DNA of 32,688 nt, taken from NCBI GenBank assembly GCA_902797395.1, contig CADBSO010000126.1, positions 1-32,688 on the forward strand, written 5' to 3'. This document shows, in pieces, positions 4,557 through 16,264 of the stretch (within the stretch, counting starts at the first letter, position 1; each line of letters begins with the position of its first letter). The translations under genes and the position numbers were made by a program. Source of the DNA: an uncultured Spirochaetales bacterium. GTDB lineage: Bacteria; Spirochaetota; Spirochaetia; Sphaerochaetales; Sphaerochaetaceae. The notes under the pieces were generated by a model. That model was not told the origin of the DNA. It searched no databases and was given only the letters and a program-made list of their open reading frames with translations.

Positions 4557-5336
4557 TTAGACCAGTTTAATATTATGATTTAATATTACTTTCTTTATGC
4601 TCTCCTTCCATTCGATTTTTTTATTATCATTATACTTGTTGTATAATTTAATAATCTCATCATCGCTTTGAAATTCAATTATTTCCTTAATCTTGTTCGT
4701 TGGAAACAATGAATTGGTATTGCAACACACCCTCTTCATAGGACTATTCATTTTTCCAACCCATATTTTCTCTGTTACAAATTCTTTAATAAGCTCATAA
4801 AGTTTATCAAAATTATTATCAAGCAATGGTTCGCAGGAGACACTCGTTTTAAAACCATTATCAAAGGCAAATTTTAAAGAATTAAGTCTCTCATCAAAAC
4901 TAGGTGCATTTGGTTCCCATAACTTTAAAATATTTGTATCTACAGAACCTATTGTGAATCTAAAAGTTATATTATTTTTAAACTTCATAAATCTATCTAT
5001 AATTTTCTTGATACAATTAAAATTAGGTTTTGTTACGACAAGTAGTTTAGTTCCTTTGTTCAATAATTTATCAAAAACTTCTAATGTTAATTCAATATTT
5101 TCTGGTGTAATATCATGGGAAGAAGGTATCATAATCATTCCATTTTTTTTAGTAAAAGCTTTTTTGCTAATATCTAGCATTTCCATTTCACACCAATCAT
5201 CGTAACGTTTTCTTTTGAATCTAATTGCCATATCTTTTGCATAACAATATACGCAATCATTACTGCATCCATTACAATAATTAAAGTTGTATGGTGCCCA
5301 TTCTTTAGTTCCAAATTTTATTTCATTCTTATTCAT
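4557..5336 (-). CDS. Phage Gp37/Gp68-like radical-SAM protein (DUF5131 type), TcmP partner
   Basis: The N-terminus carries CNGCSNDCVYCYA, giving Cys21 and the radical-SAM cluster triad Cys24, Cys28, Cys31 (CxxxCxxC) that would bind a 4Fe-4S cluster and S-adenosylmethionine. The rest reads as a partial TIM barrel of the spore photoproduct lyase/Gp37 type, 259 residues, near the usual length. The start ATG overlaps the stop of tcmP by 4 nt, implying translational coupling. Proteins with this three-Cys motif are regularly encoded next to TcmP. The substrate is not established; DNA or nucleotide modification is an inference. Very AT-rich, like tcmP and hsdS. Last gene of the minus-strand island. 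Confidence 0.8.
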   Translation of the reverse strand: MNKNEIKFGTKEWAPYNFNYCNGCSNDCVYCYAKDMAIRFKRKRYDDWCEMEMLDISKKAFTKKNGMIMIPSSHDITPENIELTLEVFDKLLNKGTKLLVVTKPNFNCIKKIIDRFMKFKNNITFRFTIGSVDTNILKLWEPNAPSFDERLNSLKFAFDNGFKTSVSCEPLLDNNFDKLYELIKEFVTEKIWVGKMNSPMKRVCCNTNSLFPTNKIKEIIEFQSDDEIIKLYNKYNDNKKIEWKESIKKVILNHNIKLV

Positions 5337-6514
5337 TTATTCAACCCAATTAAAACTTTCTGATTTGCATTTTCTGTCCAAGATTTGGATTTTTTATTCG
5401 TATTTTTAAAAAATGCAGGATATCTTGTAACTAAAATTTTACCATCACCTTCCATTTGTTTTAATACATCTTTTACATTACAAGATAGACCATATTTATC
5501 ATAATAAAATCCAATCAATTTATTTAGATGAATCCCTGAATATTCTTTCAACAACTCAATCAAATTGGCTCTTGTAATTTCTGGGTCTAAATCTTCAAAA
5601 GAAAACAAACTATCCGGATAATAAATGTTTGAATTAATGGCTTTTGCATTACACATTGTACTACCCATTAAAACAGCCCCATCAGGATGATTGGTTGCAT
5701 ATACCATATAATACTTACATATATCTGAATTCATTTTTATAGGTATCGGTATTACGTATTCAAAATACTTATTCAAAAACTTTTTGTATAAGTGTAAAAG
5801 TTCCTCTTCAACTATTTTATAATTAATTGATTGGCTATATTTCTCAGAAACTATTTCTTGCCATTCTACCCCATCTAATATTCCGTTAATTCTATTGATT
5901 AAACCATCAGAACCTATCATTTTATCTTCAACAAAGTCATCGCAACCAGAAAAATGAATATCCTTAGGTAAATGTTTTTTTAGTGCTAAGCAGCAAGTTC
6001 TAAACAAACCATTTGCATTAAAATTTATGAACAATTCGACAGTATTCAATTTTTGTAAATTTAATTTTTCAAGGATACTTTTATTCAATGATATAACACC
6101 ATAAGGATCTATATATAAAAATAAATTTACATTACCAAAACGATTGACAATGTCAACAATAGTAGTTTCAAAAGAATCATTAAAAAAATCACCAATTATA
6201 TTATTGTTTTTATTTTCAAAATTACTAACTAGAGATTTGAAATTATTTTTATCCTTTTCAATAAAATACAGTTTTAAAACATTGTCGTTATTTTTACTAA
6301 TCTCCAATGCTTCAACTGCTGCTTCATAAGCAATCAATGGAGAACCTAAAGTTCCATCTTTAAATCTACCAGCACCTGCAAAACAATCAATATATCTAAC
6401 TGGCTTTTTGGTCGCCAAGATTTTTGTAAAATATGGCATCAAGTATGATCGAAGTAACCGATCTTTGATTGTTGACCAATCTTTCTTGATATCAAAAAAT
6501 TCATCATTACTCAT
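5333..6514 (-). CDS. tcmP: Three-Cys-motif partner protein TcmP
   Basis: 393 residues. The N-terminal half has a Rossmann-like core with YIDCFAGAGRF (41-51), resembling a SAM-binding glycine loop, and FLYIDPYG (132-139) at the position of a methyltransferase motif IV. The C-terminal third looks like a winged-helix region. This matches TcmP, defined by its adjacency to Gp37/Gp68 radical-SAM proteins, and that partner follows with a 4-nt overlap. It starts 2 nt after the hsdS stop, so it is almost certainly co-transcribed with the type I restriction genes. The biochemical reaction is not known to me; methyltransferase-like or nuclease-regulating activity is conjecture. Confidence 0.8.
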   Translation of the reverse strand: MSNDEFFDIKKDWSTIKDRLLRSYLMPYFTKILATKKPVRYIDCFAGAGRFKDGTLGSPLIAYEAAVEALEISKNNDNVLKLYFIEKDKNNFKSLVSNFENKNNNIIGDFFNDSFETTIVDIVNRFGNVNLFLYIDPYGVISLNKSILEKLNLQKLNTVELFINFNANGLFRTCCLALKKHLPKDIHFSGCDDFVEDKMIGSDGLINRINGILDGVEWQEIVSEKYSQSINYKIVEEELLHLYKKFLNKYFEYVIPIPIKMNSDICKYYMVYATNHPDGAVLMGSTMCNAKAINSNIYYPDSLFSFEDLDPEITRANLIELLKEYSGIHLNKLIGFYYDKYGLSCNVKDVLKQMEGDGKILVTRYPAFFKNTNKKSKSWTENANQKVLIGLNK

Positions 6515-6516
6515 TT

Positions 6517-8082
6517 TTATACCTCTGCTTTTAGGGATTCTTCTATTGTGTCGATTTGGGCAAAGAGTTCGTTAATTTTTGCGACAATCCGCTTCTGTTC
6601 GGCAAGGGGCGGAAGCGGAATTAGTTGATTGGCAACATTATCAACTGAAATTGCCTTAAAGGTAGTTCCAGTTGCTTTTTTCTCAAAATCCTCTCTTTGA
6701 CATGAAATCCAATAAAACCAAAAATCAATTAACATATTACAAGAGGGTTGAATAGCACAAAGTCCTCTTCCTATACATATTTCTCTATCAGTTATATTTG
6801 CTATTCCAACAGGAGCTCTAACACAAAGCAATATAGAATTTTTCGTTGCGACTTTTGTTATTTTACTAGTATAGCTATCAGATTTATTTAATATCTTGTC
6901 ACTAAAGCAAATCTTCCCTTGGTGGAACTCCATTCCTAAGGCACGATTATTTATAAAATTACCTTCAGGAGACTGACCCATAATAACCAAGCAAGATTCT
7001 TTCAGCCTACACCACACCCACCCTTCAGGGATTTCAAAAGGCAAATCATCGAGTTTTACAGGTTCGTTGTTTCCTGCTTTTTCATAGTATGAGCCATCAT
7101 CGGCTTTGAAGATGTAGGACTGGTTTTTGTCTTTTTTTAGTTTGCCTTGTTTGATTAGTTCGGCTCGCTCGGCTTGGATTTTGGTTATAAGCTCGCTTGC
7201 AGGCTCATCGCCTGAATCTTGAGGCACGAGTTTTCCGCGAATGGCGAGGTCGAGTATCTTTTGGCGTGCGAGTTTTGTCAAACTCTGCAAATCTGCTTTA
7301 TTTTCCTTAAGGCTATCAATTAAAGCAAACAACTCCTCGACTTTTGCGACTATTCGCTTTTGCTCGGCAAGGGGTGATAAAGGAATTAATAATAAACTAA
7401 TTTTTGAAACTGAAACAAAACCAAAAGTTGTCGCTGTAGCTAATTCTGCCTTTAGTTGCTGTTTCAATGTAAGTGAGTATATTAACAAATAATATGGTGA
7501 TAAAATTTTTTTAAACTCATCTTTTACTGTAATTCCATTAAATTGTTGATTTGTTGTTACTGGAATTTTAGTAAACGCAACATCTCCTACCGAAGCAGTA
7601 CAGCATAACAAAACACTATTTTCAGGAACAATTCTATCTTTGGAAAGTGCAATTTCTGTTATATGTTGTTTAGTTTTTGTAATAAAAATCCCCTGATTAT
7701 GTTTGTCTTCTATTGTAAACCAAGGAACCGTTCCGTTTTCCCAAAAACTTTTATTATCTCTTTTGGGAGTTGCACCATTTCTGATATCGCATATATTCCC
7801 TAATCTACACCACACCCACCCTTCAGGGATTTCAAAAGGCAAATCATCGAGTTTTACAGGTTCATTGTTTCCTATTTTCTCGTAGTACGAGCCATCATCG
7901 GCTTTGAAGATGTAGGACTGATTTTTGTCTTTTTTGAGTTTTCTTTGTTTGATTAGTTCGGCTCGCTCGGCTTGGATTTTGGTTATAAGCTCGCTTGCAC
8001 TTCTCTCGCCTGAATTTTGAGGCACGAGTTTTCCGCGAATGGCGAGGTCGAGTATCTTTTGACGTAAAAGTTTAGTGTTCAT
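6517..8082 (-). CDS. hsdS: Type I restriction-modification specificity subunit HsdS
   Basis: 521 residues with two target-recognition domains, each preceded by a near-identical segment of about 88 residues. That segment runs from RQKILDLAIRGKLVPQ to LPFEIPEGWVWCRL, and each domain is followed by a helical spacer containing LAEQKRIVAK. HsdS directs the HsdM2/HsdR2 complex to a bipartite DNA site, each domain reading one half. The duplicated module is much more similar at DNA level (257 nt, 7007-7263 and 7805-8061) than the two recognition domains are to each other, a substrate for recombination that would exchange or delete a domain. It lies 36 nt downstream of the Abi-like remnant and 2 nt upstream of tcmP. 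Confidence 0.93.
   Translation of the reverse strand: MNTKLLRQKILDLAIRGKLVPQNSGERSASELITKIQAERAELIKQRKLKKDKNQSYIFKADDGSYYEKIGNNEPVKLDDLPFEIPEGWVWCRLGNICDIRNGATPKRDNKSFWENGTVPWFTIEDKHNQGIFITKTKQHITEIALSKDRIVPENSVLLCCTASVGDVAFTKIPVTTNQQFNGITVKDEFKKILSPYYLLIYSLTLKQQLKAELATATTFGFVSVSKISLLLIPLSPLAEQKRIVAKVEELFALIDSLKENKADLQSLTKLARQKILDLAIRGKLVPQDSGDEPASELITKIQAERAELIKQGKLKKDKNQSYIFKADDGSYYEKAGNNEPVKLDDLPFEIPEGWVWCRLKESCLVIMGQSPEGNFINNRALGMEFHQGKICFSDKILNKSDSYTSKITKVATKNSILLCVRAPVGIANITDREICIGRGLCAIQPSCNMLIDFWFYWISCQREDFEKKATGTTFKAISVDNVANQLIPLPPLAEQKRIVAKINELFAQIDTIEESLKAEV
7007..7263 (-). repeat. Internal hsdS direct repeat, copy 2 (before second recognition domain)
   Basis: 257 nt, nearly identical and exactly equal in length to 7805-8061. 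It encodes the conserved segment that precedes the second target-recognition domain. Confidence 0.88.
7805..8061 (-). repeat. Internal hsdS direct repeat, copy 1 (gene start)
   Basis: 257 nt encoding the N-terminal conserved segment. Its scattered differences from 7007-7263 cluster around codons for NSGERSA versus DSGDEPA and KIG versus KAG. Recombination between the copies would remove 798 nt containing the first recognition domain and keep the frame, since 798 is divisible by three. Confidence 0.88.
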
Positions 8083-8118: not shown

Positions 8119-8547
8119 TTAATGCTTCCTGCACATTATCAAAATTCTATTGCGTAAAATTCTGAAATTCTCAAACTTTTTTTGCATAATCTTCAGTGTT
8201 CGCATATATTTTAGGCAATTGGGAAAAGCATTTTTCAAAATGAAACTCTGATACGGATATTGTGAAAATCTTTTGGAAACGAACGATATCCAAAAACCAA
8301 GACTTAATTCTGCTACAATTCTACCGTGCGTTACATTATAACCACGCAATCCTATCGTATTCTTCGCCTCATTAATCTTTTGAACACTATTTTTGTCAAG
8401 CAATGGATAAAAGGCACGGCACACCTCGATGTTATTAAGGTAATTGCTTATAATTCCCTCCTTGCTCGTATTGCTCGTAGAAATATACGCTGACAATCTG
8501 TCGTTTGAAACTGCCTCTACAATTCCATCATATTCTTGCTGTTTCAT
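8119..8547 (-). CDS. Abi-like protein, C-terminally broken
   Basis: 142 residues. The part AELSLGFWISFVSKRF followed by ILRNRI resembles Abi family proteins (abortive-infection-like, often inserted in type I restriction loci), where a motif such as RNRIAHHEP closes the conserved core. Here the frame leaves that motif right after RNRI and stops shortly after. The next frame continues with protein-like sequence (DNVQEALNFKIDLYGVIN) and a stop 2 nt before the hsdS ATG. This suggests a deletion or frameshift removed the HEP part. Its ATG overlaps the stop of the upstream remnant (ATGA). Probably non-functional. Confidence 0.55.
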   Translation of the reverse strand: MKQQEYDGIVEAVSNDRLSAYISTSNTSKEGIISNYLNNIEVCRAFYPLLDKNSVQKINEAKNTIGLRGYNVTHGRIVAELSLGFWISFVSKRFSQYPYQSFILKNAFPNCLKYMRTLKIMQKKFENFRILRNRILIMCRKH

Positions 8548-8713: not shown

Positions 8714-10162
<1,449 letters not shown>

Positions 10163-12151
10163 TCAAGCCGCCTTTCCGTAAAATATGTATTCCGATATGG
10201 TATGAAGTTCCGCATCAAGCCTGTCTTTTGTGAATATTCCAATAGCCCTGAAAAACAAATCGCGTTTATAATCGTACAGTTTCTCTTTGCCATCGAAGCA
10301 GCCGTTTTGAACTATGTATTCCGCGATTTGACGAATCGTCTCGATTTCATTTTTCGTGAAACCTTTCTGCTTCTGACCGCAATACAGCTCGAAATACGAA
10401 CCGAACTTTCTTTTAAGCGAAACCAATTCTGCGATATGCTTGTAGCCATAGCGAACAAGCTGGATCAAATTCGTCAGACATTCTCGTTCGCTTTCGCCTT
10501 TCAACGGTTTCACTCTTCCCTCTTCCCCGTCAAGGGTTTCGTAGCACCCCCACAAAAAATCCGCCTTCAAATTGTTGTTGAATGCCAGAAGCTTTTTCTC
10601 CAGCTCCTTGAGCATAGAATATGTAATGACGGTATTTCGACTGTCATGCAGGATCCTTAGCGCCTCTATCTCATCCTTGTTTTTGGTTATATAACCCTCG
10701 AACAGCTCCACATATTCCTTCGATTGCTCTTTTGAAAACCCTGAATAAACAACTTCATCCGACTGTGCATAAGCCTTTGTCAAAAAACCAGCATTGATTT
10801 CCAAAAGCTTCGTTCGCGCCTTCACATCATCGACAATATCCGAAACGAGCAATTTGCGTTCCGTATTCGGTTCGTTGATATCAGTGTATTCGGGCAGGAC
10901 TTTGCCATCGCCGCCAAGAGCGCTGGAGAGATTGATAATAATCTCCCTTAGTGTTTTGGGATCAAGCAAATCATTCAAATCCAAAATATCATCGTTATCA
11001 GCTTTTTTACTTATATTAGACAAATACCCCATGAATAGGTTCAAATTCTCATCTGATACCTCTCCGTGTGCAAGATGCTCCATCAAATCTTTCAATGACA
11101 ATACTCGTCTGACCTTTCCTCTATCATATGCAATTGATGGCATTGATTTTTCATGCTCCGTAACTCCAACAGCATCAATCAAATAATAAAAATCCTTTGA
11201 AACCGCATTTGATGTAACATTTCGCAAGACATCATCATTTATCGTTCTGCATCCCCTGCCCTTCATCTGGGTATAAAGCACCGGCGATTCTACGTCTCTC
11301 ATGAAAACAAGAATCTCCAGTGGTTTCACATCCGTTCCTGTCGCCACCAGAGTAACAGTTATTGCTATTCTGAAATCCTTAGAGTTTCTGAACTCTCTGA
11401 TAAGAGAATTCGTATCATTTTGCGTGCAAGTGATCTTTTGAACAAAGCCATCAGGAACGGTGCCGTTTGGAAACTCGCTGGCAAATACTTTTTTTACCGC
11501 TTCGAGAATATTATCAGCATGTCTTTCATTCTTAGCAAAAAAGAGTGTCTTAGGAACCATATTCCATTCTCTTTTGCGTTCCGGATAAAGCGTGGTGTAT
11601 ATCGCATCCTTATAAACGCGAACAACCGTCTCTATTTGCGACGGCACTACAATGCTCCTATCCAATTCCTCTTTTCCGTATTCCTTTTCCTCAGAGAGTT
11701 TCTTTGTTTGGGCCCTGTTGGTAAGATTCGAAACTCTTTGAATTTCTTCTCCGCTTTTTATGGCCCCTCCTTGCTCTGTAATTTTAGTTTTAATTCTGAA
11801 AACACGAGGCGGAACGTTGACGCCATCTGCAACTGACTTTTCCAAAGTGTAATTCACAACCCGATTATCATCAAAAAAATCAAGGCTTTCCGGTGTCGGT
11901 GTTGCTGTAAGTCCAATGATCTTGGCACTATCGAAATATTCGAAAACGGTGTTCCAGTCACCATAAATAGAACGATGGCACTCGTCTATCACAATCACAT
12001 CAAAGAAGTCTTTCGGTAAAATGGAGTTTGCTGGTATGGGTGATATTTTTGCCGATTCATGCTCTTCATCACCTTCCTCGTTGTCATCCAGATTAGAAAT
12101 CCTTTGCCCGGTTAATGCGGCAAAAAGCCTTTGAATCGTTGAAATGACCAC
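10163..12151 (-). CDS. hsdR: Type I restriction endonuclease HsdR, C-terminal part (frameshifted)
   Basis: 662 codons open from a GTG that is probably not a real start, since the natural reading enters from the N-terminal fragment. It holds the remaining helicase motifs: DECH (56-59), LTATP, and QMKGRGCRTI (motif VI), followed by a C-terminal helical domain that contacts the methylase core. HsdR is the translocating ATPase and nuclease of the complex. Restoring one base at 12156-12158 would join this with the upstream fragment as one protein of 931 residues. As written, the two halves are separate and restriction should be lost, while HsdM/HsdS methylation could persist. Confidence 0.88.
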   Translation of the reverse strand: MVISTIQRLFAALTGQRISNLDDNEEGDEEHESAKISPIPANSILPKDFFDVIVIDECHRSIYGDWNTVFEYFDSAKIIGLTATPTPESLDFFDDNRVVNYTLEKSVADGVNVPPRVFRIKTKITEQGGAIKSGEEIQRVSNLTNRAQTKKLSEEKEYGKEELDRSIVVPSQIETVVRVYKDAIYTTLYPERKREWNMVPKTLFFAKNERHADNILEAVKKVFASEFPNGTVPDGFVQKITCTQNDTNSLIREFRNSKDFRIAITVTLVATGTDVKPLEILVFMRDVESPVLYTQMKGRGCRTINDDVLRNVTSNAVSKDFYYLIDAVGVTEHEKSMPSIAYDRGKVRRVLSLKDLMEHLAHGEVSDENLNLFMGYLSNISKKADNDDILDLNDLLDPKTLREIIINLSSALGGDGKVLPEYTDINEPNTERKLLVSDIVDDVKARTKLLEINAGFLTKAYAQSDEVVYSGFSKEQSKEYVELFEGYITKNKDEIEALRILHDSRNTVITYSMLKELEKKLLAFNNNLKADFLWGCYETLDGEEGRVKPLKGESERECLTNLIQLVRYGYKHIAELVSLKRKFGSYFELYCGQKQKGFTKNEIETIRQIAEYIVQNGCFDGKEKLYDYKRDLFFRAIGIFTKDRLDAELHTISEYIFYGKAA

Positions 12152-12957
12152 GCTTCCCTGCCTAGAGCATTCGCATCTGTCAGTCTCAGAACCACATAAT
12201 CATCCGAAAACCTATTCCCCGACTCCGTCAGCCGATAAGTCTCGAATTCGTTCTCCGCTTGCTTTCCAAGATTATTCCTATCAACAAGGAACAACACTCT
12301 TTTTGCAGAAGTATAATTAAGAAGCCTGTAGCAAGCCGTGCAAGCCGTAAATGTTTTCCCAGCCCCTGTAGCCAAAACAACCAACGCCCTTTTCTTGCCT
12401 TGCTTGAAAGACAACTCAAGGTTGCTGATTGCCTCGAACTGGCACTCCCTCAAGCCTTTCGGACCAACTGGCGGCAGAGACGGAAGCTTCGCATACTCGG
12501 AACAAACAACTCCGTTGCTTCTGTTGACAATTTCCTTCGGTGTGAGCATTTTCTTCAATCGTGAGTATTCTTCATCACCACTCAAATCCTTGAAGAGCAA
12601 ATCATTACCATTGGACAAGAAGATAAAAGGCAAAGGTTTCGCCCAATACTGCACCCATTCAGGAAGGTTTTTCGAATAGTTCTCGGCTTGGGTTGCAACA
12701 TCAGCGCCTAATTTGCTTTCGCTCCTTTTCGCCTCAATCACTCCGATTGCCTTGCCATCAAGGTATAGAACATAATCAGCTTCCAAATTGCCATTCAGAA
12801 GATTTTCCCTAACCGCCAAAGCGTTTATGGAATTTGTAAAACCATCTCTTCCAACAACGCTCCAACCTGCATCTTCGAGCATAGCATCGATCTTCTTCCG
12901 AGCCTTCTCCTCTGGAAGCAAGTCATGCGTTGGATTTTCTATTGCACAATTTTTCAT
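12112..12957 (-). CDS. hsdR: Type I restriction endonuclease HsdR, N-terminal part (frameshifted)
   Basis: 281 residues. The nuclease domain has a PD-(D/E)xK pattern: Asp61, then Glu75-Ala-Lys77 in VIEAKRSE. Helicase motif I is ATGAGKT (196-202). The natural frame ends after LTDANALGR; beyond it the frame reads EAWSFQRFKGFLPH and stops, while the neighbouring frame gives GSVVISTIQRLF, as expected for HsdR. The start ATG at 12957 has AGGTG about 9 nt upstream. It lies 29 nt after the ietS stop, so the restriction genes directly follow IetAS. Confidence 0.88.
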   Translation of the reverse strand: MKNCAIENPTHDLLPEEKARKKIDAMLEDAGWSVVGRDGFTNSINALAVRENLLNGNLEADYVLYLDGKAIGVIEAKRSESKLGADVATQAENYSKNLPEWVQYWAKPLPFIFLSNGNDLLFKDLSGDEEYSRLKKMLTPKEIVNRSNGVVCSEYAKLPSLPPVGPKGLRECQFEAISNLELSFKQGKKRALVVLATGAGKTFTACTACYRLLNYTSAKRVLFLVDRNNLGKQAENEFETYRLTESGNRFSDDYVVLRLTDANALGREAWSFQRFKGFLPH

Positions 12958-12986: not shown

Positions 12987-15230
12987 TCAGCTTTCAAACT
13001 CGACTTCTTCCTCTGCCAAAACATAATTTTCAAGCATGCTGTCGATGTCGCAGACCTGAACATCCCAATTATGTTCTGCGCGACAAAGGCGGATAAATTC
13101 ATCATATCTGTTCTTGCCGCTGACTTCTTTCAAGGTGATGACGGCGCCAAAATGAATGCCCTGACCAGAACCCTTTCCAAGCCTTTCATTCACTTTTACG
13201 CTAATCCCCCATTCCCGGTTGCCGTAAGCCTTCTTAGGAGCGCTCCTGCTTGCCTTCTCACAAGTGAATTTGACATTGTCCCACTTGCGATACAAGTCCC
13301 TTGCGTCATCTTCTCTGACTTTATCAACACCTTGCCTGTCGCCGCTGATCGGCTTTATTTTATCGTCATCGCCAAGCCTGCCAAAATGAAAGCTCAACTC
13401 CGTGTCGGTATAGTCAACCCCTTGCTTTCTAGAGCATTTTGGGAAATAGCAAAAAGTCGACCTGCTTGCGAAAGGATATTTTCCCTTGGATTTTGGAATC
13501 GGTATATTATACGCATACGTATCATAATCCTTCGCTTCTCCATAAATGAAAAATCTTATTTCATCTTCCCTTGACTTCAAAACCTCATCGATTCTCACGG
13601 GAACAAGCCCGAAACCTAGCAAATCCCTGTTTTGCTCATTGAACTTCCAATTCGCTGCAGAATCTATAATCAAGGCTTTGGCAACCTCTCGCGGAAGCTT
13701 CATTATGTAAATGAGATATGCCAATTTCCTTGTTATCCAAGGGGCGGCAAAGGATGTCCCTCTTACTTTTTCAAAAGAATTTCCAGGACAACAAACCTTA
13801 ATGCCATCAAAGCTATCCCCGCCATATGCGGAAACATCAGGCTTGTGGAAGAAACACAGGACAGGACCCTTTCTGGAATATTTGGCGGGCTTGCCATCGA
13901 ATGCCGCCGAATTGACCACAACAGAATTCAGGGAATCGGCAGGAGAACCTATGCGAGGGTATTCTTTTCCATTATCACTGTTGTTCGTCCCGGAGACAAC
14001 AAAAATCACATCGTTTTCAAATTGCAATTCATCCAAAACGGCTGCTTCCGGGGAAATTTTATTCAATTCTATTTCTGCCTCACTGCCCAAGGACAGATTC
14101 CAAACCTTTATATCTTTGTTGGAAAGCACGATTTGCCTTATTTCTTTTATAATGCTCAATGAGCTGTTTACGCCCTCCTTCGCAACACCGAAATGTCTGA
14201 CCCTGAACCTTCCGCACCCATCGTCAAATTCCGGATTCAATGAAGCCCCGTCGACTATCAAAGAGGAAACGATTGTCCCATGCCTATAGTCCTTATAGCT
14301 ATCACCATCATCCATCATTGCTTCATCTAAACGATTCTCATACTTCACCCAATCACTAAAATAAACATCATTTGAGAATTGGGTATCAATAACGCCGATG
14401 ATCGGCTCGTTTTGAGGCTCGGGAATTGCCATCGAACCTCCAGAAAGCCTTATAGGGCTTCTGTCGTTTTCATATTTATTGAGGTCTTCGACATCCATCG
14501 ATATTAAGAACCTTGCCTTTTTGACTAATTTGCTATACTGGTCCGGAGTCAGCAGGAATGTCAAATCATCGAATCTGGCTATTGCTTCGCTTTTAAAATC
14601 GATTTTTTTGCATAGTTCATCGTACGAGATGCCTGTATCATATATAGAAACTAATTTTTGCTTATTTATCGTATCCGGCATGCCAGTATTCGGCAATTCA
14701 AATTTTTCAATATAAAACAAATCCTTGACAATTTCAGCAAAAGCGCTTTTGCTGAACGAATTGAACCTCGAACTGCCCTTTGACAACTCATTTATATCAT
14801 TGCAACCGACCCTTCCATTATATTTTTGACTGATAATGTTTTTGCAATTCTCAATTTTTTCCAGCGCGGTTTTAACGCAATCCTCGTCAAGGCAATATGT
14901 TATGATATGCTTAGGATCTGCAGGTGAATTAAACCTCGCGCCCCTAACCGCGTCGTTTGAAGAAATTTTACCATAATCAAAAATATTTGATATCCTGTTC
15001 GACTTCGATACGATTTTCGTATAATGGACATCAATCAAAGGCTTGAACCCCAAGGGATTGTTTTCTTGCCAATGCTTCAAAATGACCGCCAGCTCGCCAT
15101 GCAGCTTTGAGATCCTGCCGACATCAAGGAACGCCCCGTTCGGAATATTGGACATCCCCTGCCCGGACATGCGCTTCCTATGGCTGAGATTGCCCCTCAA
15201 ACATATCAAGTTGTTCGTAAATTTCGTCAT
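12987..15230 (-). CDS. ietS: Subtilisin-like serine protease IetS (anti-phage IetAS)
   Basis: 747 residues. The S8 catalytic triad is visible: Asp282 in GVIDTQ, His317 in YRHGTIVSS and Ser493 in GTSFAAP. About 270 residues precede the protease domain, and a C-terminal domain of about 200 residues follows. There is no signal peptide, so it should be cytoplasmic, unlike most subtilases. Its ATG overlaps the stop of the AAA+ gene by 4 nt. An AAA+ ATPase plus S8 protease encoded this way matches the IetAS anti-phage system. How infection is sensed and what is cleaved is not visible here. Confidence 0.85.
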   Translation of the reverse strand: MTKFTNNLICLRGNLSHRKRMSGQGMSNIPNGAFLDVGRISKLHGELAVILKHWQENNPLGFKPLIDVHYTKIVSKSNRISNIFDYGKISSNDAVRGARFNSPADPKHIITYCLDEDCVKTALEKIENCKNIISQKYNGRVGCNDINELSKGSSRFNSFSKSAFAEIVKDLFYIEKFELPNTGMPDTINKQKLVSIYDTGISYDELCKKIDFKSEAIARFDDLTFLLTPDQYSKLVKKARFLISMDVEDLNKYENDRSPIRLSGGSMAIPEPQNEPIIGVIDTQFSNDVYFSDWVKYENRLDEAMMDDGDSYKDYRHGTIVSSLIVDGASLNPEFDDGCGRFRVRHFGVAKEGVNSSLSIIKEIRQIVLSNKDIKVWNLSLGSEAEIELNKISPEAAVLDELQFENDVIFVVSGTNNSDNGKEYPRIGSPADSLNSVVVNSAAFDGKPAKYSRKGPVLCFFHKPDVSAYGGDSFDGIKVCCPGNSFEKVRGTSFAAPWITRKLAYLIYIMKLPREVAKALIIDSAANWKFNEQNRDLLGFGLVPVRIDEVLKSREDEIRFFIYGEAKDYDTYAYNIPIPKSKGKYPFASRSTFCYFPKCSRKQGVDYTDTELSFHFGRLGDDDKIKPISGDRQGVDKVREDDARDLYRKWDNVKFTCEKASRSAPKKAYGNREWGISVKVNERLGKGSGQGIHFGAVITLKEVSGKNRYDEFIRLCRAEHNWDVQVCDIDSMLENYVLAEEEVEFES

Positions 15231-16264
15231 GCTTTTTGGATTTCCCTTGAAACCTGGCTTTTTGAAACCCCGGTGATAATCTCAATATCCCTGAGAGTAA
15301 AACCCATGTCGGACATCATTTTATAATTCTTGCCTATATCAGGATTAATGCATTCGAACAACCGTCTTAGATAATCATAGTCTTCATTCAAATTGCTGAA
15401 AGCGATTGATGTTTTTATTATGTTCTTCAAATCACCCGGATACGGAATAGGCTTCATCGTCAAAATTATTTTTTCAAACAGCTTTTCATTGTCTTTTATA
15501 TTCCTGAACTTAATTTTAAAATCGTTATATATTGCCTTAGCAACCTCCAAAAGGTCTTTTTGCGTATATTTGTTGAAATCAATAACCTTATCGAATCTTC
15601 TCAAAAGCGCCTTGTCAAAAGTATCAAGCAAGTTCGTTGTGGCAATAAAAACCACGCTGTCGTTCAATTCGTCGAGACCTTTCAAGACCGCCGTTGTTGC
15701 CCTGCCCATCTCGCGCAAGTCGTGATTGCTGATCCTGTCCATTGCAATCGCATCAATTTCATCAAACAGAATGATAATCTGATCCGGATAATCCAAATTG
15801 TTTATTTCATTGAAAACATCATTAATATTCTTAGCAGTTTGACCCAATTTGCTATCTATTATGCTATTGAAATCTACAGCATACAGCTCTCTGCTCAATA
15901 TTCTGCCAAGTTGCTTTGCCGTTTCGGTTTTGCCAGTCCCAGGGCTTCCGGAAAACAAGAACTTATTTACTCCAGAACGCTGCTCAATGGCATTGGAAAT
16001 GCCTTTTATATCATTTGCAATTGGAGTCGGAAGGGGCAGAGACGAATTGGCGTATTCTATTTTCCTGAAATAATCTGAATTCCCATTGAGCTTCTGAGGC
16101 ATGAATGTATTGGTTCCTGATAGGAGCGCTTGTATATATTCCGCCAACTGGTGATTCCCATTATTATTAAAATCTCTCGCTATCTCAAACGCTTCATCAC
16201 TGAAAGCCAGATTGTTGCCTTCAATGTGGTATTTTATCAAATTAATAATGTTTTTCTTTTTCAT
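15227..16264 (-). CDS. ietA: AAA+ ATPase IetA (anti-phage IetAS)
   Basis: 345 residues with a single AAA+ module: Walker A GSPGTGKT (106-113), Walker B LFDEID (166-171), sensor-1 ATTN (208-211) and the arginine-finger region LLRRFD (220-225). The last 25 residues, from GFTLRDIEIITGVSKSQVSR to the end, look like a helix-turn-helix. It probably forms a ring that controls the IetS protease. It is the first gene of the minus-strand island; a promoter-like pair lies just upstream (16280-16308). No Shine-Dalgarno sequence is evident before the ATG. Confidence 0.85.
   Translation of the reverse strand: MKKKNIINLIKYHIEGNNLAFSDEAFEIARDFNNNGNHQLAEYIQALLSGTNTFMPQKLNGNSDYFRKIEYANSSLPLPTPIANDIKGISNAIEQRSGVNKFLFSGSPGTGKTETAKQLGRILSRELYAVDFNSIIDSKLGQTAKNINDVFNEINNLDYPDQIIILFDEIDAIAMDRISNHDLREMGRATTAVLKGLDELNDSVVFIATTNLLDTFDKALLRRFDKVIDFNKYTQKDLLEVAKAIYNDFKIKFRNIKDNEKLFEKIILTMKPIPYPGDLKNIIKTSIAFSNLNEDYDYLRRLFECINPDIGKNYKMMSDMGFTLRDIEIITGVSKSQVSREIQKA

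Follow-up and report, generated by a model that had tools for sequence, protein, structure and literature searches.

A TcmP/radical-SAM gene pair behind hsdS in an uncultured Spirochaetales bacterium: probably a separate phage-defence module

We have analysed a window of 32,688 nucleotides (the whole stretch studied, contig CADBSO010000126.1, positions 1 to 32,688 of the forward strand) from an uncultured Spirochaetales bacterium, in which a tcmP gene and a gene for a radical S-adenosylmethionine (radical-SAM) protein follow hsdS, the specificity gene of a type I restriction-modification (R-M) operon. The initial annotation of this DNA had offered two readings of the pair, either a modifying add-on to the restriction system or a separate defence module. 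Our survey favours the latter. Pairs of this kind occur in or beside type I, type III, McrBC and Eco57I-like loci, near prophage repressors and on plasmids, and because their contexts are so many and most of them have no type I genes nearby, the pair is probably a separate phage-defence unit and not part of this one restriction system. The add-on reading is disfavoured because the link to hsdS/hsdM is not constant, the positions within operons vary and the base composition of the pair is unlike that of hsdS.

A recurrent and mobile pair of genes

The pairing of TcmP with a radical-SAM protein, noted in the initial annotation, recurs throughout the survey and goes beyond chance. In the first loci taken, from the same-phylum, plasmid and phage sets, a radical-SAM gene adjoined every TcmP. 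Among named genomes, whose 80 loci of DUF5131, the family of the typical partners, are the top-scoring hits of a single DUF5131 protein and thus no random sample, tcmP lay within 400 bp at 67 of the 75 scorable loci; on viral contigs it did so at 41 of 68. Nine of the ten window-like TcmPs found on viral contigs were paired, the remaining one standing at a contig end. The order of the genes is variable (tcmP first in 80 cases, convergent in 34, radical-SAM first in 22), and the distances among TcmPs correlate weakly but significantly with those among their partners (Mantel r 0.14, 0/999 permutations). Chance adjacency was considered and rejected, since the neighbourship of both families recurs across the surveyed loci. 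Hence, tcmP and the radical-SAM gene very probably form a genuine unit.

This unit is also mobile. Pairs occur on plasmids, conjugative elements and temperate phages. TcmP scored above the family cut-off in 18 of 393 genomes of the same phylum. A scan of the genome contigs with the window TcmP detected no relative. Three elements (L050, L053 and L230) carry two TcmP genes for one radical-SAM gene; in L230 a helicase of PDC-S28, one of the phage-defence candidate (PDC) systems, adjoins the second, short TcmP.

Genomic neighbourhoods and the type I operon

The initial annotation had suggested counting hsdS and other defence genes around such pairs, and this survey showed an association with R-M genes. 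R-M genes were sought with a few models built from a handful of loci, and all R-M counts are therefore lower bounds. At least 18 of the 67 pairs in named genomes and at least six of the 20 pairs of the same phylum, window included, had R-M genes within 5 kb (24/87 together), whereas 40 control regions taken from same-phylum genomes had none when scored at their centres (Fisher P about 5e-5; 4/320 when all possible centres were taken). The same was found for at least 11 of 51 pairs on viral contigs. Genes for hsdS or hsdM lay within 5 kb of nine of the 67 named-genome pairs, where about 0.5 would be expected from hsdS density. The immediate neighbours in named genomes were led by the Pfam families ResIII (6), N6_N4_Mtase (5), DEAD (4) and the S24 repressor-type peptidases (4) among 123 proteins. 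Nor are the pairs found overwhelmingly in prophage structural regions, a distribution that would have refuted the initial readings: on viral contigs repressors and R-M-type helicases were the commonest immediate neighbours, and, tail genes being few among them, a prophage structural gene was rejected as an explanation.

The type I operon is one context among several. In L104 and L106 the pair is embedded with hsdR on one side and hsdS on the other (gaps of -3, 43, 16 and 1 bp); it adjoins hsdS in L032 and L123, and stands after hsdS in the window. Elsewhere it adjoins type III genes (L042, L052), lies between two R-M-type genes at the type III locus L127, follows mcrC of a McrBC locus (L217) or is flanked by Eco57I-like methylases (L216, L218). 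In plasmid and phage records its neighbours comprised an EcoRI-like methyltransferase with DUF262, a type ISP R-M gene, Eco57I methylase genes and the PDC-S28 helicase with its second TcmP, while in a Gordonia temperate phage the pair adjoins the phage repressor. In S. meliloti, tcmP has been placed in one putative unit with the abortive-infection defence gene Hna (PMC12445080).

These contexts bear directly on the type I add-on, in which the pair would alter DNA or the site bound by HsdS/HsdM and so extend or tune the specificity of the R-M system. Such a role would agree with the tight coupling to hsdS in the window and with the embedded or adjoining pairs in L104, L106, L032 and L123. However, the constant linkage to hsdS/hsdM expected of a type I component was not observed, the majority of pairs lie at a distance from type I genes, some of them in type III, McrBC and Eco57I-like loci, the position in type I operons varies and the composition of the window pair is unlike that of hsdS. 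We consider this add-on improbable, and a type I-specific accessory was rejected, type I genes being absent from the surroundings of most pairs.

The features of the window that concern the pair and its operon are the following.

4557-5336, minus strand: radical-SAM gene, 259 aa; PF04055 E 1.5e-10; cysteine motif C24-x3-C28-x2-C31
5333-6514, minus strand: tcmP, 393 aa; TIGR04474 125.9 bits
6517-8082, minus strand: hsdS, type I specificity subunit; PF01420 E 3.8e-46 in two stretches, corresponding to two target-recognition domains
8119-8547, minus strand: small open reading frame (ORF) of 142 aa, separating hsdM from hsdS; N-terminus weakly similar to PD-T4-5 (PADLOC E 1.3e-4)
8714-10159, minus strand: hsdM, type I methyltransferase; PF02384 E 2.6e-62, HsdM_N
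10163-12151, minus strand: C-terminal part of hsdR, after the frameshift; EcoEI_R_C, ResIII; frame change
12112-12957, minus strand: N-terminal part of hsdR, before the frameshift; HSDR_N, ResIII; frame change

The close packing described earlier was confirmed, as the ATG of tcmP begins 2 nt past the hsdS stop and the TGA of tcmP shares the letters ATGA with the start of the radical-SAM gene, a 4-nt overlap. The supposed likeness in composition to hsdS, by contrast, was not borne out: the G+C content of the pair is 27.2/26.9% (20/24% at third codon positions), whereas hsdS has 37.3% (31%) and hsdM 43.3%, which sets the pair apart from hsdS. Decay was considered and rejected, both frames of the pair being open and conserved.

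Other genes of this run deserve mention. The hsdR gene (10163-12957, minus strand) is split by a single frameshift, a homologous HsdR aligning to residue 249 and then in the other frame from residue 258 with no further gap; the split is either an error of the draft assembly or a sign that HsdR is not active in this genome. In HsdS, a block of about 70 aa at the start recurs almost unchanged in the middle of the protein, and recombination of target-recognition domains could act on this repeat. The AT-rich small ORF at 8119-8547 may be what is left of a defence gene. Genes for an AAA ATPase and an S8 peptidase (12987-16264, minus strand) lie immediately upstream of the type I operon. They overlap by 4 nt and match the IetA/IetS anti-phage models (PADLOC E 4.9e-39 and 4.9e-61), constituting a second defence system in this gene run.

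Predicted enzymes of the pair

The window TcmP matches NCBIfam TIGR04474 with 125.9 bits over residues 12-287 (cut-off 53) and has the adjacent three-cysteine radical-SAM partner expected of that family. A search of the PDB with the single sequence returned no match. The AlphaFold2 (AF2) model, with a predicted local distance difference test (pLDDT) score of 90, was placed by Foldseek next to Trm1 (E 7.2e-7) and then RlmJ, and upon structural re-alignment RlmJ became the best match (Z 16.4, 3.3 A, 221 residues) and Trm1 scored Z 14.1, many further class I methyltransferases following at Z 12-13. TcmP is very probably a methyltransferase with an RlmJ/Trm1-like Rossmann fold. Trm1, a tRNA G26 N2 methyltransferase, thus has the better Foldseek E-value and the lower Z, and Trm1-type proteins have a motif IV, DPFG, that resembles the D[PQ]xG of TcmP.

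The relation to RlmJ, the N6-adenine methyltransferase of 23S rRNA A2030, was also recovered by comparing profiles. Aligned by hhalign with the RlmJ family alignment, the TcmP profile matched over 94 columns (E 1.4e-6, probability 90%), pairing motif I (YIDCFAGAGRF with YLDTHAGAGRY) as well as the GSP segment and motif IV. When the RlmJ of E. coli was used as one sequence instead, motif I alone was aligned, with 8% probability, and a comparison of family with family was required. The window TcmP carries motif I D43-x-F-A-G-x-G, GSP at 57-59, motif IV D136-P-Y-G and K17, and shares with RlmJ the fold, motif I D-x-x-AG-x-G, GSP, the motif IV aspartate and the helix-1 lysine. D136 corresponds to RlmJ D164 in the local profile alignment and is kept in 60/60 TcmPs, while K17 corresponds to RlmJ K18 in the global alignment only and is kept in 59/60. 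Both RlmJ residues are essential to methyl transfer, K18A and D164A being inactive (PMC3814359). As judged from the profile alignment together with the fold match, K17/K18 and D136/D164 would be equivalent residues; the relation of TcmP to RlmJ and the retained Lys/Asp pair are new in this analysis. The two proteins also differ in their setting, since RlmJ is a housekeeping enzyme and TcmP the product of a mobile pair gene, and long TcmPs have an additional C-terminal region (about residues 311-393) that is absent from TcmPs of about 290 aa. Model topology and weak profile matches to winged-helix-type regulators of the PDB (residues 290-361) suggest that this region is a probable winged helix.

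The radical-SAM protein of the window matches PF04055 and has a CxxxCxxC motif, but it is not, as first described, of the Gp37/Gp68 type. It does not match PF07505 (DUF5131) at E<=1e-3, while typical partners do so at about 1e-108 and the controls L044 and L092 at 1e-108 and below, and it reaches 36 bits with TIGR04470, far under the cut-off. Partner proteins mostly have the cysteine spacing CX6CX2C; the window protein is among the 15 of 136 with CX3CX3C or CX3CX2C. In its AF2 model (pLDDT 80, with low values at the cluster loop) the radical-SAM barrel is recognizable, spore photoproduct lyase (SPL) being the best Foldseek match (E 1.1e-5), with SuiB, SPL and viperin tied near Z 13. The three cluster cysteines are the only ones invariant in 25 relatives, an observation that speaks against an auxiliary cluster as well as the extra cysteine of SPL. 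In SPL, C140/C141 is an additional catalytic cysteine, and C140 mutants appear in PDB titles.

The resemblance to SPL raises the question of whether the pair could serve nucleic-acid repair, an SPL-like enzyme reversing a lesion with the assistance of TcmP. Besides the Foldseek match, a weak profile match to SPL and the S24/LexA-type neighbours of some pairs would be compatible with such a function. Nevertheless, SPL, SuiB and viperin lie within 1 Z of one another, the window protein shares 16% identity with SPL, lacks its conserved fourth cysteine (C140/C141) and is paired with a methyltransferase, and the distribution of the pairs (18/393 genomes) is patchy and mobile. Repair is, in our opinion, very improbable.

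The window TcmP and that of L092 share 34% identity (395 aa, E 3.5e-47), which puts the L092 protein no further away than the rest of the window clade, and yet L092 pairs it with a true DUF5131 protein (E 1.8e-109). Because a window-like TcmP carries such a partner, the simplest reading of these sequences is that the radical-SAM partner may have been exchanged within the TcmP clade. The radical-SAM protein of the window is a divergent, probably swapped partner type, newly recognized here.

This exchange also bears on a toxin-antitoxin or abortive unit, in which one enzyme would modify an essential host RNA and its partner reverse or restrain it. Two small neighbouring genes that are nearly always together, an RNA-methyltransferase-like fold of TcmP, zeta-toxin genes near some pairs and the Hna gene of S. 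meliloti (PMC12445080) would suit this arrangement. However, swapping among radical-SAM types is unexpected of a specific antitoxin, and L050 and L053 carry two TcmPs per radical-SAM gene; we regard such a unit as quite unlikely.

Some phages encode DUF5131 without TcmP. In four of them (L235, L236, L237 and L238) the lone gene stands amid replication genes and has ASCH-domain genes beside it or DNA methyltransferases close by, the latter in Bakery and prophi58-1. This context fits a nucleic-acid role and may represent a separate system or another partnership of the family. It would also accord with a further alternative, that DNA (hyper)modification by the pair shields the carrier element from restriction, as an anti-restriction or self-marking device, which would explain its presence in phages, on plasmids and next to R-M genes. 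Many DUF5131 genes are indeed found in phages and on plasmids, and the RlmJ active site resembles those of DNA N6-methyladenine enzymes (PMC3814359). Against this, shielding would be superfluous for chromosomal R-M operons, no sequence-specificity domain was seen in the pair, and the unpaired phage DUF5131 may be another system. We consider anti-restriction rather unlikely, although less so than the preceding alternatives.

Proposed mechanism and relation to known systems

The separate-module reading can be extended into a mechanism. From their folds, the two proteins are plausible nucleic-acid-modification enzymes. TcmP would transfer a methyl group to a base of RNA or DNA, at an exocyclic amine or a comparable position, and the radical-SAM enzyme would then modify the same base or a neighbour. 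This two-step proposal has its precedent in wybutosine synthesis, in which Trm5 and then TYW1 act successively. The product might damage or mark the invading nucleic acid, or else protect or alter host RNA during infection. Having inserted at the 3' end of the type I R-M operon, the module would act independently of HsdRMS and benefit mainly from shared transcription and transfer. An antiviral role is fairly likely, while a strict order of the two steps, argued by analogy, is doubtful. Taken as a whole, the explanation of the pair as a mobile module of two enzymes, self-contained and independent of HsdRMS, modifying bases of RNA or DNA and antiviral in function, has in our estimate about an even chance of being right.

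Several points weigh against it. About 70% of the pairs have no detected R-M gene within 5 kb, on counts that are lower bounds, and islands collect unrelated mobile genes, which makes neighbourhood weak evidence of function. Motif IV of TcmP is D-[PQ]-x-G and not the DPP[YF] (DPPY) of RlmJ, a third of TcmPs having DQ instead of DP, and Y4/H6 of RlmJ motif X are not kept, N3/E5 occupying those positions; hence, RlmJ chemistry is not transferable unchanged to TcmP. The sequential step has precedent only, and no experiment demonstrating defence by any TcmP pair was found in the searchable literature, which on TcmP function yielded annotation or expression mentions only.

The closest known counterparts are PDC-M30 and PDC-M41, of which TcmP is subunit A and DUF5131 subunit B in PADLOC-DB v2. 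PDC systems were proposed as phage-defence candidates through guilt-by-embedding, without experimental validation (PMC10855318; PMC11878078). Of 100 P. aeruginosa strains, 32 were predicted to carry PDC-M30, and 68.8% of these were phage-resistant, although resistance in this panel also climbs with the overall count of systems, which makes the link to PDC-M30 only a correlation (PMC10855318); two PDC-M30 loci were reported in PA14 (PMC11878078). The main texts of the P. aeruginosa hotspot and DefensePredictor studies contain nothing on a TcmP/radical-SAM pair. The window pair resembles these systems in its two-gene TcmP and radical-SAM design, in its embedding in R-M loci and in a partial match of its TcmP to M30A (1.6e-15) and M41A. 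It differs in the radical-SAM protein, whose matches to M41B and M30B are weak and partial (1.2e-6 and 9.9e-6, typical members reaching about 1e-119) and whose cysteine spacing is another. The association with R-M loci is thus already known as a class, and the window contains a divergent member that B-subunit models match weakly.

TcmP/DUF5131 pairs are widespread candidate phage defences. The relation to RlmJ supplies catalytic residues to mutate and a product class, a methylated base, and the presence beside several R-M types argues for treating the pair as a system of its own. More tentatively, and with the chances clearly against it, the pair could produce an undescribed hypermodified base in two steps, methylation and radical chemistry, serving as a defence effector or mark alongside several R-M types, the window representing a branch with an exchanged radical-SAM step. 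Ordinary as a catalogued candidate defence, the window pair is more notable for its divergence, its swapped partner and a concrete, testable catalytic hypothesis, the swap suggesting which step of the family's chemistry is exchangeable.

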